A program made the position numbers and the translations under genes. A DNA stretch of 38,577 nucleotides from NCBI GenBank assembly GCA_021203365.1, contig JAJQBI010000055.1, positions 1 to 38,577 on the forward strand. The letters are read 5' to 3'. This DNA is from Clostridiales bacterium (GTDB lineage: Bacteria > Bacillota > Clostridia > Lachnospirales > Lachnospiraceae). Below the pieces are notes generated by a model. The model had not been told where the DNA came from and did not search any database. It saw only the letters and a program-made list of their open reading frames with translations. Shown piece by piece: positions 30,915 to 36,340 of this stretch (positions are counted from its first letter, which is position 1; each line of letters starts with the position of its first letter).

Positions 30915-31805
30915 TCAGATCCCCTGGTTTTCAGAAAAACGTGTTTTCAGCAGATCCACCAGTCTCTCTGCAATCGGCGTAAAGACCTGATACTTCTTCC
31001 AGATGATATACATTTTTGTTTCCAGTTTCGGAGACAGCGGCCGGAAGCACAGGCCACTCTCCGGACTGACATCGGCCAGACGGTCAAAGACCAGCAGACA
31101 CCCTAACCCTTCCCGGACAAACACCGAACCATTGTAAAACAGATTGATGGTTCCAATCATGTTTAACTGATCGACAGCTTCCCCACACCATCGCGGAAGA
31201 TCGACGCGGAGAGACTGGGGAGAACTGATGAGAGGGACACCCTGTAAATCCTCCGGGTGTATGGCGGCTTTCTGTGCCAGCGGGTTATCTTCCCGCATCA
31301 GGAGTCCCCAGGTATCGCTGCCCGGCAGGGAGAGATAGTTGTATTTTGAAAGGTCAGGCGGTTCTACGATGACCGCAAAATCAGACAGCCCCTGTTCCAG
31401 ATCATTCACTACCACACGGGTATCCCCACTGGTGATATGAAACCGCAGCCCCGGATATTGCAGGCGAAATTCCTTAATGACATCGGCCAGATAATGAATC
31501 AGCCAGGATTCTGCACAGCCAATCCGCACGTCCCCGCCAGTAACGTCATTCAGGGAATGGAACTCATCTATGGTTTTGTCTGTCATATTCAAAATGTCCT
31601 CTGCTCTTTTGCGCAGCAAAATCCCTTCTTCGGTCAAATGCACATTGTAATTTCCCCGGACAAATAACTTGCACCCAAGCTCTGCTTCCAGCTCCTTAAG
31701 TTGTTTCGATAAGGTTGGCTGGGAAATGTGCAGCGTTCTGGCTGCACCCGTGATGCTGCCTTCTCTGGCCACTTCGATAAAATATCGTAACACTCTCAGT
31801 TCCAT
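30915..31805 (-). CDS. LysR-family transcriptional regulator (2)
   Basis: 296 residues. The start is at ATG 31805 (MELRVLRYFIEVAREGSITG), preceded by GGAGGGG; an upstream in-frame ATG would add 24 unlikely residues. The helix-turn-helix (AARTLHISQPTLSKQLKELE) and effector domain are complete. It is clearly a paralogue of the LysR at 19069-19965. It is divergent from the nitroreductase-flavodoxin-sirtuin operon across about 210 bp, the classic layout for a LysR and its target. The words TGTAGCT at about 31944 and 31981, on both sides of the -10/-35 boxes, are candidate half sites. Confidence 0.9.
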   Translation of the reverse strand: MELRVLRYFIEVAREGSITGAARTLHISQPTLSKQLKELEAELGCKLFVRGNYNVHLTEEGILLRKRAEDILNMTDKTIDEFHSLNDVTGGDVRIGCAESWLIHYLADVIKEFRLQYPGLRFHITSGDTRVVVNDLEQGLSDFAVIVEPPDLSKYNYLSLPGSDTWGLLMREDNPLAQKAAIHPEDLQGVPLISSPQSLRVDLPRWCGEAVDQLNMIGTINLFYNGSVFVREGLGCLLVFDRLADVSPESGLCFRPLSPKLETKMYIIWKKYQVFTPIAERLVDLLKTRFSENQGI

Positions 31806-31951
31806 AGGATTTCCCCTCCTTTCCGGACTTTGAAAAGATCCCGCCCGATACCAACTTGTTAACTTCGCTTTTGCCATGCCGGTCTATAAGAAAATTTTAC
31901 CCGGATTAGATAAAAAGTGCAATCAAAACGTGGAAAAAACAAATGTAGCTC

Positions 31952-31980
31952 TTGACATTACTTTTATATCGCAATATAAT
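31952..31980 (+). promoter_or_regulatory. Consensus sigma-A promoter of the nitroreductase-sirtuin operon
   Basis: TTGACA (31952-31957), 17-bp spacer, TATAAT (31975-31980). AATGTAGCT occurs just before the -35 box and again overlapping the -10 box, which fits regulator binding across the promoter. Confidence 0.88.
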
Positions 31981-32013
31981 GTAGCTACTTAAATTACATT
32001 AAGGAGGGTAATA

Positions 32014-32553
32014 ATGATGCAAACTTTAGAAGCGATTGCCAAAAGAAAATCAACACGGGATTTTGACCCGGATAAGGCAGTTCCAGAGGAGATTATTGAT
32101 ACAATTGTAAAGGCAGGCTGCCAGGCTCCCATCGGTGCGAATAAAAGAGACTCTCTTCATCTGACCGTATGCCGGAATAAAGAAATTCTGAACGAGATTA
32201 ATCAGTCCACCGCCGCGGCCATGAAAATGGAGACGCCCAGAGATTTCTTCTATGGCGCGCCTGCTGTGATCATTGTTTCCGCTTCAGAGAAACAGATGGC
32301 GCCGGGGATTGAATATGCGAACGCCGCGTGTGTGATCGAAAATATGCTGATTGCTGCGACGGACGCCGGTGTTGACAATATTTATCTCTGGGGTGGCATA
32401 CAGGCTCTGGCAAAGAACGCAGACATGTGTGGGAAGCTGGGAATTCCGGAAGGGTTCAGACCGGTTTCCGCTGCAGCAATCGGATACAGCAAGAGCGGCA
32501 GCGCCGAGCCGAGAGAATTATCAGTCTCACTTGCAGTGAATTACATCGATTAA
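32014..32553 (+). CDS. Nitroreductase-family protein, first gene of the sirtuin operon
   Basis: 179 residues (ATG 32014, with 32017 as alternative; AGGAGG upstream). Nitroreductase features: IAKRKSTRDFDPDKAVPEEI, IVKAGCQAPIGANKRDSLHL, a YANAACVIENMLIAATDAGV helix and the C-terminal AAAIGYSKSGSAEPRE. It likely binds FMN and takes electrons from NAD(P)H. As the first gene after a LysR-controlled promoter, it may sense or remove an oxidant. The flavodoxin follows 93 bp on, across a probable attenuator. Confidence 0.88.
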   Translation: MMQTLEAIAKRKSTRDFDPDKAVPEEIIDTIVKAGCQAPIGANKRDSLHLTVCRNKEILNEINQSTAAAMKMETPRDFFYGAPAVIIVSASEKQMAPGIEYANAACVIENMLIAATDAGVDNIYLWGGIQALAKNADMCGKLGIPEGFRPVSAAAIGYSKSGSAEPRELSVSLAVNYID

Positions 32554-32570
32554 ATCATTGACGAAACAAG

Positions 32571-32616
32571 GGCACCCATTGAAGATATCACCTCTCTTTG
32601 ATGGGTGTTGCCGTTT
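32571..32616 (+). terminator. Probable attenuator between nitroreductase and flavodoxin genes
   Basis: CACCCAT (32573-32579) pairs with ATGGGTG (32601-32607); GG/CC extends the stem at its base. A short TTTT follows. It could reduce expression of the downstream genes relative to the nitroreductase. Confidence 0.5.
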
Positions 32617-32645
32617 TATGCGTGACGCGGAGAAAGGAGGGCATC

Positions 32646-33104
32646 ATGAAAACACTGATTGCTTATTATTCAAGAGCAGGCGCAACGAGAAAAGCTGCGG
32701 AGGGACTGCAAAAGATTACGAACGGAGAACTGTTTGAGATCAGGGGCGAGAAAAACTATGGAAATTATTTCACCGCGCTTGGAATTTCCAGAAAGGAATT
32801 TTCTGAAAATGAGCTTCCCAAAGTTGTGGACCAGGTAAAGGACTTTGATTCTTATGACCGCATTCTGATCGGTTTTCCAATCTGGTACAGTAAATGTCCT
32901 CAGCTGGTTCTGTCATTTATATCGCAGTATGATTTCAGAGGAAAAGAAGTTTATCCTTTCTGCACCAGCGGGATGAGCGGGCCTGAAACTGCGGCAGAGC
33001 AGCTGACGAAGGCCTGTGTCGGCGCGGCCGTTCATTCCGGTCTTCGTTTAAATAAAATCAATGAAGAGACAGTCCGGAAATGGCTTGATGGAGGCGGTAA
33101 ATAA
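32646..33104 (+). CDS. Flavodoxin (1)
   Basis: 152 residues. MKTLIAYYSRAGATRKAAEG carries the FMN phosphate loop (Y-S-R-A-G-A-T). YDRILIGFPIWYSKCPQLVL is the second flavin-contact strand, and FCTSGMSGPETAAEQL follows. This is the NAD(P)H:quinone/flavodoxin-4 type. AAAGGAGG precedes ATG 32646. The stop overlaps the first sirtuin ATG (TAATG), so both are translated together. It probably carries electrons between the nitroreductase and other partners; that pairing is inference. Confidence 0.87.
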   Translation: MKTLIAYYSRAGATRKAAEGLQKITNGELFEIRGEKNYGNYFTALGISRKEFSENELPKVVDQVKDFDSYDRILIGFPIWYSKCPQLVLSFISQYDFRGKEVYPFCTSGMSGPETAAEQLTKACVGAAVHSGLRLNKINEETVRKWLDGGGK

Positions 33105-33829
33105 TGAAGAGTGAATACAGTCAGTTAAAAGAATATATGGATCAGAGTAAGAAGACGGTCGCCGTAACAGGCGCGGGAATTTCTTATCTCTATGGCGTGA
33201 GCAGACTGAAACAAAGCGTCGGCAGGCTGAATGCCGGACGAATTTTTTCGGCTTCCTATGTCCGCAAAAAGCCGGAGGAGTTTTACAGGGTTATGAAGAA
33301 TGCTTTTCTGGACGCAACTTTTGTCAAGGGGCCGAGTCCTGTTCATAAGCAGCTGGCGGAGCTGGAAAAGCAGGGGAAGCTCTATGGCATCGTCACTCAG
33401 AACCTGGATTGTCTGCATACCATCGCCGGTTCTCAGAATGTGATAGAATTCCAGGGGAGTTTTCGGGACAATATCTGCACAGATTGTGGAAGCCGTTATT
33501 ACGATTATCAGATATGGAATGAAGGACAGGAGCCGCGTTGTGAAAAATGTGGAGCGCCGCTTATGCCAACAGGCTTCTGCAGGGATTTCAAAACCGGGGA
33601 AGAGGTATCGCGGGAGAGCATGAACAAAGCGGCCACTATGATATCTGAGGCGGATTTGGTGATTGTGATCGGCACGACCGGATTTCGCAGCAATGAATAC
33701 TTAAGCCGCATGAAGGCCGGGACAAAGCTTGTGCAGATCAACCCGTCTGAGACGCTGTTCGACCGGATGGCAGACCTGAATATCCGGGCAGATGCGGCGG
33801 AAGTCCTGGATGCTGTCATGAATGGATAA
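33104..33829 (+). CDS. Sir2-family protein (1), divergent sirtuin
   Basis: 241 residues. NAD-binding GAGIS (23-27) and the catalytic TQNLDCLHTIAGS with His105 are present. The zinc site has Cys125, Cys128, Cys146 and Cys149. The usual G-I-P-D-F-R loop after GAGIS is replaced by YLYGVSRLKQSVGRL. Sirtuins missing that loop, such as the macrodomain-linked SirTM class, act as protein ADP-ribosyltransferases rather than deacylases. With a PARG-like gene two genes on, ADP-ribosylation is a reasonable guess, but only inference. Translational coupling with flavodoxin before it and with the second sirtuin after it. Confidence 0.87.
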   Translation: MKSEYSQLKEYMDQSKKTVAVTGAGISYLYGVSRLKQSVGRLNAGRIFSASYVRKKPEEFYRVMKNAFLDATFVKGPSPVHKQLAELEKQGKLYGIVTQNLDCLHTIAGSQNVIEFQGSFRDNICTDCGSRYYDYQIWNEGQEPRCEKCGAPLMPTGFCRDFKTGEEVSRESMNKAATMISEADLVIVIGTTGFRSNEYLSRMKAGTKLVQINPSETLFDRMADLNIRADAAEVLDAVMNG

Positions 33830-33842
33830 GGGGTTGGTGTTT

Positions 33843-34559
33843 ATGCGATTTGCCAGGGGAAACCGGAACGTGGATAAAATACAGCAGCTGGCAGACTATA
33901 TTGATCAGAGTCACAGCATGGTCGCCATTACCGGGGCCGGCATTTCTCTTGCCGGCGGAGGCATTACATATGGCCAGCTTTCTAAAACGGTTCGTTCGGG
34001 TGGCTTTGGGAGTGACGATTTTCTGCGCTCTTATGTCAAGGCCATGCATAACTATAAACCCAGTTTCAGCCATTACGCGCTGCGAGATCTGGAGACAGCC
34101 GGAAAGCTGACGGGGATTATTACGACAAATGAAGATTGTATGCATACCATGGCGGGGTCCAGAAACGTAGCGGAAATCCAGGGAGGATTTCAGATCAACC
34201 GCTGCTCGAAATGCGGCCGTCACTATGACGGATATGAAATCTGGGAGCAGGAGGAACTGCCAAAGTGTGAATCATGCGGAGGCAGAATCCTGCCATGGGA
34301 GCTTTACAGTCATATCAGCCTCTGGGAGGAAGGCGTCCGGAAAGCACAGGAATGGATCTCCGGGGCAGATCTGATCCTTGTGATCGGAACCAACGGCTAT
34401 TACAGCAGCGCGTACTGGAATTACAGGAGAAATGATGCGGTCATTGTCCAGATCAATCCGGGACATACCGGTTTTGACCGTGCCGCAGATTTGAATATCC
34501 GGGAAGGCTCTGATGATGTATTTCATAAGCTGATAGAAAGGTGGAACGGGAATGTCTGA
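33843..34559 (+). CDS. Sir2-family protein (2), divergent sirtuin with altered TQN motif
   Basis: 238 residues from ATG 33843 (AAGGGG 9 bases upstream; ATG 33822, overlapping the previous stop, is an alternative). It is a paralogue of the gene before it. GAGIS is followed by a Gly-rich LAGGGITYG instead of G-I-P-D-F-R. The catalytic stretch is ITTNEDCMHTMAGS, so the usual TQN reads TTN, while His101 is kept. Zinc ligands are Cys121, Cys124, Cys142 and Cys145. The altered glutamine implies a different NAD chemistry or substrate from the first copy. It overlaps the PARG-like gene by eight bases. Confidence 0.87.
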   Translation: MRFARGNRNVDKIQQLADYIDQSHSMVAITGAGISLAGGGITYGQLSKTVRSGGFGSDDFLRSYVKAMHNYKPSFSHYALRDLETAGKLTGIITTNEDCMHTMAGSRNVAEIQGGFQINRCSKCGRHYDGYEIWEQEELPKCESCGGRILPWELYSHISLWEEGVRKAQEWISGADLILVIGTNGYYSSAYWNYRRNDAVIVQINPGHTGFDRAADLNIREGSDDVFHKLIERWNGNV

Positions 34560-35634
34560 TGAGCAGACAAACAGAGAATTATCCGAAGAAGAGCGCATGA
34601 AGCAGATGGCGGCGCAGATGCGTGCTTCGGAATACAAAGGACTTTCCGAAGAAGAAATTCAGGAAAGAGAGCGGCTAATAGAAATGCGCAGAAAAAAGAA
34701 TATCGGGATACTGGAGGACACTCTGGGGATTCTGGAGAAGGGAAGTTTTGAAAAAGACGGGCAGGAGGTAAAACTGCGGTGTTCTTCAGAACAGATGCAG
34801 GAAATCCAGGTGTTTTTGCCGGAGGACATTGATGCTCTGCGGACAGAGGCAGCTTCTGCTTCTGAAATTGTCCTTGCCGCAGACGATGCGGGAAGTGATG
34901 AAAACCGGACGCGGACGACAGCAGGCTGCGCGTTTAGCTGTGAAAACGTGGATGCTCTGGTTCTCGCACAGAAGAGATATCACAAATTAAAAGAAAACAA
35001 AGAATCAGACCCCAGGGTTCTGGTACTGAATCTGGCAAGCTCCACGCATCCGGGGGGTCAGACCCGCAAAGGTGCCAGCGCACAGGAAGAGGATCTCTGC
35101 CGCAGGACTTCTCTTCTGGTTTCTCTGGAAAGTGACGAAGCAAAAAAATATTATGATTATAACAATGCCCGGAAGACACACATGGGTTCTGACGGTGTGA
35201 TGATTTCACCCTGTGTGGAAGTCATCAAGGATGCTTCCTCAGAGACGCTTTCTGATCCATTCCCGATTTCTGTCATGAGCTGTGCGGCTCCAATGATCCG
35301 TCTGGGACTGGAAGGAATGTCGCAGCAGGAATACGAAATAATGCTGTATCGACGCATTCAGGGAATGCTTCTGGTGGCGGCATCTCAGAATTATCGCCAC
35401 CTGATTCTGGGGGCGTTCGGCTGCGGCGTATTCGGCAACGATGCCGCAGTTGTCTCAGATCTGTTTTATCATGTGATACAGAAACTGACCTTCTGCGGCA
35501 AAGGGAGCGGCCAGCTGTTTGACTCCATTGATTTTGCTGTGCTCTGCCGCCCGGGAAAGGATTACAACTACAGAGAATTCTGCAGAAATTTCGCACAGAA
35601 GGAAGACTCCTGCGTGGCCGGGAGTGTTGAATAA
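34552..35634 (+). CDS. TIGR02452-type PARG-like macrodomain protein
   Basis: 360 residues. An N-terminal helical region (about 1-95; RKKNIGILEDTLGILEKG) is usual for this microbial PARG-like group. The macro/PARG core has LNLASSTHPGGQTRKGASAQ and EED: the PARG signature G-G-G-x(6-8)-Q-E-E appears as GGQ (168-170)-x7-QEE (178-180), so the catalytic Glu pair is intact while the third Gly is Gln. ILGAFGCGVFGNDAAVVSDL is the second ADP-ribose-binding loop. It most likely hydrolyses ADP-ribose from proteins or polymers. It overlaps the second sirtuin, implying a writer-eraser set. A strong terminator ends the operon. Confidence 0.88.
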   Translation: MSDEQTNRELSEEERMKQMAAQMRASEYKGLSEEEIQERERLIEMRRKKNIGILEDTLGILEKGSFEKDGQEVKLRCSSEQMQEIQVFLPEDIDALRTEAASASEIVLAADDAGSDENRTRTTAGCAFSCENVDALVLAQKRYHKLKENKESDPRVLVLNLASSTHPGGQTRKGASAQEEDLCRRTSLLVSLESDEAKKYYDYNNARKTHMGSDGVMISPCVEVIKDASSETLSDPFPISVMSCAAPMIRLGLEGMSQQEYEIMLYRRIQGMLLVAASQNYRHLILGAFGCGVFGNDAAVVSDLFYHVIQKLTFCGKGSGQLFDSIDFAVLCRPGKDYNYREFCRNFAQKEDSCVAGSVE

Positions 35635-35863: not shown

Positions 35864-36340
35864 ATGGCAAAGAAAACATTGGTGGCATATTTTTCGGCAA
35901 GTGGGGTGACTGCATCCCTTGCAAAGGAATTGGCGGATGGGATTGGAGCGGACCTGCATGAAATACGGCCGGAGATTCCTTACACGAAAGCTGATCTGGA
36001 CTGGACAAACAAAAACAGTCGCAGCAGCGTGGAAATGAAGGATAAGTCTTTCCGCCCGCCGATTGCAAATAGTGTGGAAAATATGGATGAGTATGAAAAA
36101 ATCTATCTCGGCTTTCCGATTTGGTGGTATGTAGCTCCAACCATCATCAACACGTTTTTAGAGCAGTATAATCTGACTGGAAAAGAGATTATCCCTTTTG
36201 CAACGTCAGGCAGCAGTGGAATGGGGCGGACAAACGAAGAATTGAAGGCCTCCTGTAAGGGTGCGGTTTTAAAAGAGGGCAGACGTTTTGCTGCCAATGC
36301 CAGTGCAGCAGAGCTGAAGGCCTGGGCAAATAAAAACTGA
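35864..36340 (+). CDS. Flavodoxin (2)
   Basis: 158 residues from ATG 35864 (AAAGGAG 9 bases upstream). KKTLVAYFSASGVTASLAKE is the FMN phosphate loop; YEKIYLGFPIWWYVAPTIIN and IIPFATSGSSGMGRTNEEL supply further flavin contacts. It is the same flavodoxin type as the one at 32646-33104, but the two differ substantially, so this is not a recent copy. It has its own promoter. The rhamnosidase gene follows at once, but probably has separate meaning. Confidence 0.87.
   Translation: MAKKTLVAYFSASGVTASLAKELADGIGADLHEIRPEIPYTKADLDWTNKNSRSSVEMKDKSFRPPIANSVENMDEYEKIYLGFPIWWYVAPTIINTFLEQYNLTGKEIIPFATSGSSGMGRTNEELKASCKGAVLKEGRRFAANASAAELKAWANKN

Follow-up and report, generated by a model that had tools for sequence, protein, structure and literature searches.

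Two sirtuins without a catalytic histidine and a PARG-like protein form a conserved gene cluster in gut Clostridia, a candidate module for reversible ADP-ribosylation

What would two sirtuins lacking the catalytic histidine do in one operon with a PARG-like protein, a nitroreductase and a flavodoxin? The question is raised by the window analyzed here, the 38,577-nucleotide contig JAJQBI010000055.1 of the Clostridiales bacterium assembly GCA_021203365.1 (hereafter contig C8 of genome G000; other genomes are designated Gxxx and fetched loci Lxxx). Open reading frames and family searches confirm the gene order given in a preliminary description of this DNA, namely nitroreductase, flavodoxin, first sirtuin (SirA), second sirtuin (SirB) and TIGR02452/PARG-like protein behind a consensus promoter (Table 1). 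The cluster is real and conserved and, as far as the literature searched goes, undescribed: no description of a sirtuin paired with a TIGR02452/PARG protein was found there, subscription papers lying outside its scope. It differs from the known SirTM/Zn-Macro system in sirtuin lineage as well as in the class of the eraser candidate. We propose with moderate confidence, giving it about an even chance, that it constitutes a distinct module for reversible ADP-ribosylation, linked to redox or electrophile stress.

Analysis of the sirtuin sequences reveals that the catalytic histidine is replaced by glutamine (QG for HG) in every SirA and SirB examined (80/80 and 94/94, respectively); in the alignment, histidine occupies this column in 26 of 26 canonical sirtuin rows. 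SirA retains the zinc cysteines and the Asn and Asp of the nicotinamide adenine dinucleotide (NAD) site, and is 40.8% identical to SirB. Class M sirtuins, which carry the same His-to-Gln change, did not deacylate and did ADP-ribosylate according to the available part of PMC4518038. On the other hand, membership of SirA and SirB in class M (SirTM) is ruled out by a missing arginine, a missing loop and separate clades. The arginine of the class M motif MNLR, equated with Arg192 by position and motif (SpySirTM itself being outside the alignment), is present in 16/16 class M rows and corresponds to F in 13/13 SirA and to L or I in 18/18 SirB rows. The GVGx[NT]TP loop was not found in the 13 SirA and 18 SirB rows, nor in the 1 row of SirX, a third kind of QG sirtuin, whereas NTP is seen in 16/16 class M rows. 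In the tree, which included no His-type sirtuins near class M and for which the program warned of long branches meeting, class M, SirA, SirB and canonical sirtuins each form one side of a supported branch. No SirTM structure figures among the best 60 of 103 sequence matches or the 50 listed fold matches, which we do not count as evidence.

The sirtuin alignment was scanned against a collection of 84,980 species, each represented by a single genome, yielding 282 pattern matches and 244 relatives, of which the best 80 underlie the locus counts given below. By their accession prefixes these 80 loci trace to 73 assemblies and are therefore not 80 independent genomes; all records are metagenome-assembled genomes, with titles naming Lachnospiraceae, Oscillospiraceae, Ruminococcus, Clostridiales and similar Bacillota. 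Where 4 kb of contig is available downstream of SirA, a SirB-type sirtuin (SirB or SirX) is found in 45/49 loci and a PARG gene in 43/49. Three exceptions (L082, L098 and L160) have neither within this distance, the PARG gene of L098 extending beyond the 4 kb limit and that of L082 lying about 5 kb upstream; L088 is without SirB, and L081, L084 and L085 are without PARG. Upstream of SirA, the 50 loci with 3 kb of contig contain a nitroreductase (29), a divergent Rrf2 gene (24), a YcgN-like cysteine protein (13) or a flavodoxin (8), and the gene immediately preceding SirA is a nitroreductase in 28 and a flavodoxin in 17 of all 80 loci. The same order is seen in relatives as distant as 67% SirA identity (G500). 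Control loci were scanned for ten partner proteins within a stretch smaller than that used for SirA (about 1.5 kb); any partner was matched at 0/25 canonical and 2/20 class M sirtuin loci. Moreover, among 30 fetched TIGR02452 loci a sirtuin occurs within up to 1.5 kb at the cluster locus L033 alone. The grouping is beyond chance: SirA, SirB and PARG make up a conserved unit, often accompanied by redox enzymes, and the two unlike sirtuins and TIGR02452-type eraser candidate remarked on in the preliminary description are indeed neighbours in most loci.

Of 250 genomes sampled from the same family, 39 contain TIGR02452 and four (G000, G198, G196 and G130) contain SirA with at least 71% identity, the next-best match being G201 with 39% identity. 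G196 has a divergent Rrf2 gene followed by nitroreductase, SirA, SirB and PARG. In G130, PARG-SirA-SirB share one contig, a second contig has PARG and a truncated SirA, and a third has SirB by itself. In G198, one contig has SirA-SirB together with no more than a short, broken PARG match, and SirB-PARG lies on a different contig. The truncated SirA of G130 (L070:10084-10545), the end of which merges, as judged by eye, into an adenylation-protein-like stretch, is a decayed copy. In wider samples, query A3 matched G000 alone among 398 genomes of the phylum (E≤1e-55) and 4/391 genomes of the class (E≤1e-50), these including G000 and one genome (G560) with the SirX kind. The SirX genes stand in the orders MarR-flavodoxin-nitroreductase-SirX (G201) and nitroreductase-MarR-SirX (G560), the genes being confirmed by family scan.

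The eraser candidate scores 150 bits against a TIGR02452 cut-off of 50, and its predicted structure (AF2, pLDDT 88) has T. curvata PARG as its best match (3sih, E 3.9e-22, TMt 0.88). With the microbial PARG enzymes of T. curvata and D. radiodurans (5zdb) it has in common the fold and the QEE catalytic motif; it differs from them by an N-terminal helical extension, by its linkage to QG sirtuins and by a changed third glycine. The PARG catalytic motif is given as GGGx6-8QEE in the accessible part of a review (PMC7050489). QEE is invariant in a 35-row alignment, whereas the third glycine is replaced in 57/57 complete cluster copies (Q in 35, H in 14, R in 8); TIGR02452 proteins outside the cluster, taken from the 30 loci fetched out of 39 genomes with a match, read GGG in 29/29. 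The window protein (PGGQTRKGASAQEE) keeps QEE and has lost the third glycine, and does not show the full signature. In L022:108-2222 and L030:1474-3552, PARG_cat_microb is fused with an ADP-ribosylglycohydrolase (PF03747) in proteins of about 700 residues.

The promoter, TTGACA-17-TATAAT at 31952-31980, agrees with the sigma-70 consensus at 12/12 positions with a 17-base spacer. The whole promoter scan gave six promoter-like sites against 6.0 expected, so that the weight rests on the perfect match and the conservation of this site. A near-consensus promoter is present within 250 bases upstream of 31/42 related nitroreductase genes, and in the listed loci it is part of a longer conserved element, approximately AATTGTAA-n-TTGACATTAC-n13-TATAATGTAA...TTACATTA. 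The whole genome contains two mismatch-free copies of the element (C8:31952 and C10:27991) and five with three mismatches; a backward control pattern gave 1 match. The divergent LysR gene is present in the window as first reported, but the proposal that LysR controls the operon is rejected as a general feature, since LysR is not conserved with the cluster (0/80 loci within 3 kb upstream of SirA, 50 of them having that much contig). Where the first upstream gene is on the contig, it is an opposite-strand Rrf2 gene in 31/67 loci and a TetR-like gene in 8/67, the 13 further loci ending at a contig edge. Rrf2 probably controls the cluster in many relatives; its match to the redox regulator HypR is weak (41.1 bits, cut-off 180).

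The second mismatch-free element belongs to a decayed copy of the cluster in G000 (C10, about 26.6-28.5 kb; L073:9657-11566), made up of an Rrf2 gene, the promoter, remnants, an intact SirB of another kind and a YcgN-like gene. The remnants correspond to the C-termini of the nitroreductase (23 residues, 78%, E 1e-6) and of SirA (21 residues, 71%, E 3e-4). C10 shares 55 identical bases with the right end of the window, which places the decayed copy downstream at a distance of about 12 kb and with the same orientation.

Comparison with the SirTM/Zn-Macro operons, as presented in the available parts of PMC4518038 and PMC11490716, shows several likenesses: glutamine in place of the catalytic histidine, a sirtuin and a macrodomain-fold gene in a single operon, flavin-type redox enzymes as neighbours in the extended operons, and a proposed link to oxidative stress. 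In contrast, clusters of the window type have two or three sirtuins each, these sirtuins form their own clades without the Arg192 equivalent and the loop, and the candidate eraser belongs to the PARG class (TIGR02452/PF10021) instead of Zn-MacroD, no Zn-Macro gene adjoining it. The genome carries a true class M sirtuin/Zn-macrodomain pair elsewhere, on C19 (L199:681-1550 and 1501-2274). No GcvH-like gene had been noticed at the locus, and a PF01597 search of the whole genome (83.7% complete) was empty as well; two lipoate/biotin-ligase-type genes (PF03099) are located on other contigs, C41 and C6. Residues, clades and eraser class thus bear out the earlier suggestion of a system distinct from SirTM/Zn-Macro. 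As a marker for class M, NF001755 proved of no use (0/120 genomes over cut-off); NF003163 (Zn-Macro) was over cut-off in 48/120 and pointed to real SirTM pairs.

We favour reversible ADP-ribosylation because of the conserved gene order, the glutamine for histidine, the class M precedent, the PARG fold with QEE and the conserved promoter/operator, and also because SirX stands by nitroreductases elsewhere and control loci rarely match the partners. In such a module, redox or electrophile stress would cause transcription from the strong promoter, which in many relatives is probably under the control of the linked Rrf2 protein; in G000 Rrf2 adjoins the decayed copy. SirA and SirB would transfer ADP-ribose from NAD to a target, either a protein or a small molecule, and would not deacylate lysine, the replacement of the histidine base by glutamine being the proposed reason. 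The PARG-like protein, with its changed glycine loop and intact QEE, would take the ADP-ribose off. The nitroreductase and flavodoxin would serve the same stress response without being obligatory targets. The preliminary description had considered the operon's own flavoproteins as substrates; the flavodoxin, being optional in relatives, is unlikely to be a general one.

Several points weigh against this reading. The class M arginine is necessary according to the available part of Rack et al. 2015 (PMC4518038), and since SirA and SirB have neither this arginine nor the GVGx[NT]TP loop, the chemistry of class M may not apply to them. No target protein is conserved throughout (nitroreductase 29/50, flavodoxin 8/50 in the 3 kb upstream), and the whole redox or stress link consists of gene company. 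Near SirX in G201 and G560, no PARG was found in the stretches read; as SirX nevertheless sits by redox genes, the association of QG sirtuins with such genes extends beyond their link to PARG. The change of the third glycine could mean that the PARG-like protein has lost activity. Finally, PARG cleaves the bonds between riboses but is unable to cleave the one between protein and ribose (PMC7050489, available part), which implies altered specificity, a product other than mono-ADP-ribose, or an inactive enzyme. A variant in which the sirtuins act in series, the first attaching ADP-ribose and the next extending it into a short sirtuin-made chain with no PARP, would explain a chain-cutting PARG rather than an eraser of the MacroD class, but we give it a slim chance.

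An alternative that we regard as unlikely is small-molecule chemistry. The sirtuins may ADP-ribosylate, or otherwise modify with NAD, a plant-derived or self-made metabolite in a detoxification or biosynthetic pathway, to which the nitroreductases and, downstream in some relatives, an adenylation domain, GNAT and esterase would contribute further enzymes. Indeed, an amino-acid adenylation enzyme follows PARG in 19 loci, in 17 of these at -24 to 104 bases (one representative scores 346.9 bits with TIGR01733, cut-off 317.4). Its gene lies downstream in 17/46 loci with 6 kb of contig, frequently ahead of GNAT and esterase genes, but is missing in the other 29, and adenylation, GNAT and esterase genes are all unmatched in the window and in the C10 stretch. 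Two of the 80 records (Zagget) come from koala, an animal on a eucalypt diet (PMC5697889, available part), which we take as a lead only; a search for the origin of the other 78 gave no result. The pathway has no known carrier protein or product, which counts against small-molecule chemistry.

Less probable still are unusual deacylases, in which glutamine would allow slow or special deacylation and the PARG-like protein would clear sirtuin-made O-acyl-ADP-ribose. By alignment score, SirA and SirB are nearer to the canonical CobB of the genome (266 and 265, at 31.7 and 32.5% identity) than to its class M sirtuin (71 and 80), and share with CobB/SIRT deacylases the fold, the zinc cysteines and the NAD-site Asn and Asp. 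Their best structural matches, among those listed, are mostly deacylases, and GNAT genes lie near some loci. On the other hand, no SirA or SirB examined retains the histidine, the printed SirA and SirB alignment rows have also lost the canonical VVLYEE and IPDFR segments, and the class M sirtuins with the same exchange showed no deacylation. Anti-phage defence is a role of other proteins with the sirtuin fold, and the patchy occurrence (SirA in 4/250 genomes of the family) and varying copy number would suit a defence or toxin-antitoxin module that consumes NAD and in which PARG is the protective partner, but PADLOC (2023 library) matched none of 7 proteins, and the frequent nitroreductase coupling and the conserved promoter make this the least probable reading of all.

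The features of the window are collected in Table 1. The tight packing from flavodoxin to PARG described earlier is confirmed, stop and start overlapping by 1 base (flavodoxin-SirA) and by 8 bases (SirA-SirB and SirB-PARG). The true start of SirB may be some codons inside its frame, a 92% identical relative beginning with MTLMRFARG. The 92-base gap between nitroreductase and flavodoxin holds a hairpin that 4/200 shuffles fold equally well and in which 5/10 pairs are changed on both sides (21 hand-picked stretches); it is a possible attenuator or processing site. A second flavodoxin lies downstream of PARG at 35864-36340 (PRK07116, 225.2 bits, cut-off 198). In other loci, the neighbourhood includes HXXEE-motif membrane proteins upstream of the cluster (L113, L128 and L119), a recurring TM1586-type nitroreductase and, often adjoining the cluster, the small YcgN-like protein with CxxCxxxCC (L073:9657-9971 and relatives), for which there is no Pfam match. 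Right after PARG, L107:10290-11798 and similar loci show a free-standing amino-acid adenylation enzyme and, beyond it, GNAT and enterochelin-esterase-like genes.

Table 1. Positions of the operon genes and associated elements in the window
Feature	Position	Strand	Basis or remark
Divergent LysR-family regulator	30915-31877	-	Open reading frame list; PF03466/PF00126
Conserved promoter/operator element	31930-32003	+	TTGACA-17-TATAAT, flanked by GTAA/TTAC half-sites (TAATGTA...TTACATTA)
Nitroreductase-family protein	32014-32553	+	PF00881, 63.5 bits
Hairpin between nitroreductase and flavodoxin genes	32572-32608	+	Fold z -2.15
Flavodoxin	32646-33104	+	PF12682, 97.4 bits; within a longer TTG-started frame
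SirA, QG-type sirtuin	33104-33829	+	PF02146, 93.9 bits
SirB, second QG-type sirtuin	33822-34559	+	PF02146, 65.3 bits
PARG-like protein, candidate ADP-ribose eraser	34552-35634	+	PF10021, 87.8 bits; TIGR02452; contains PGGQTRKGASAQEE

Reversible ADP-ribosylation by sirtuins, in the parts of the literature available to us, is that of class M sirtuins with zinc macrodomains. The present cluster brings together, in many gut Clostridia, another sirtuin lineage devoid of the catalytic histidine and another class of eraser with an active-site change of its own. Were the proposed activity true, the two would represent a new writer-eraser pair, ADP-ribosylating sirtuins would need neither the class M arginine nor its loop, and a bacterial PARG would have found a plausible partner.

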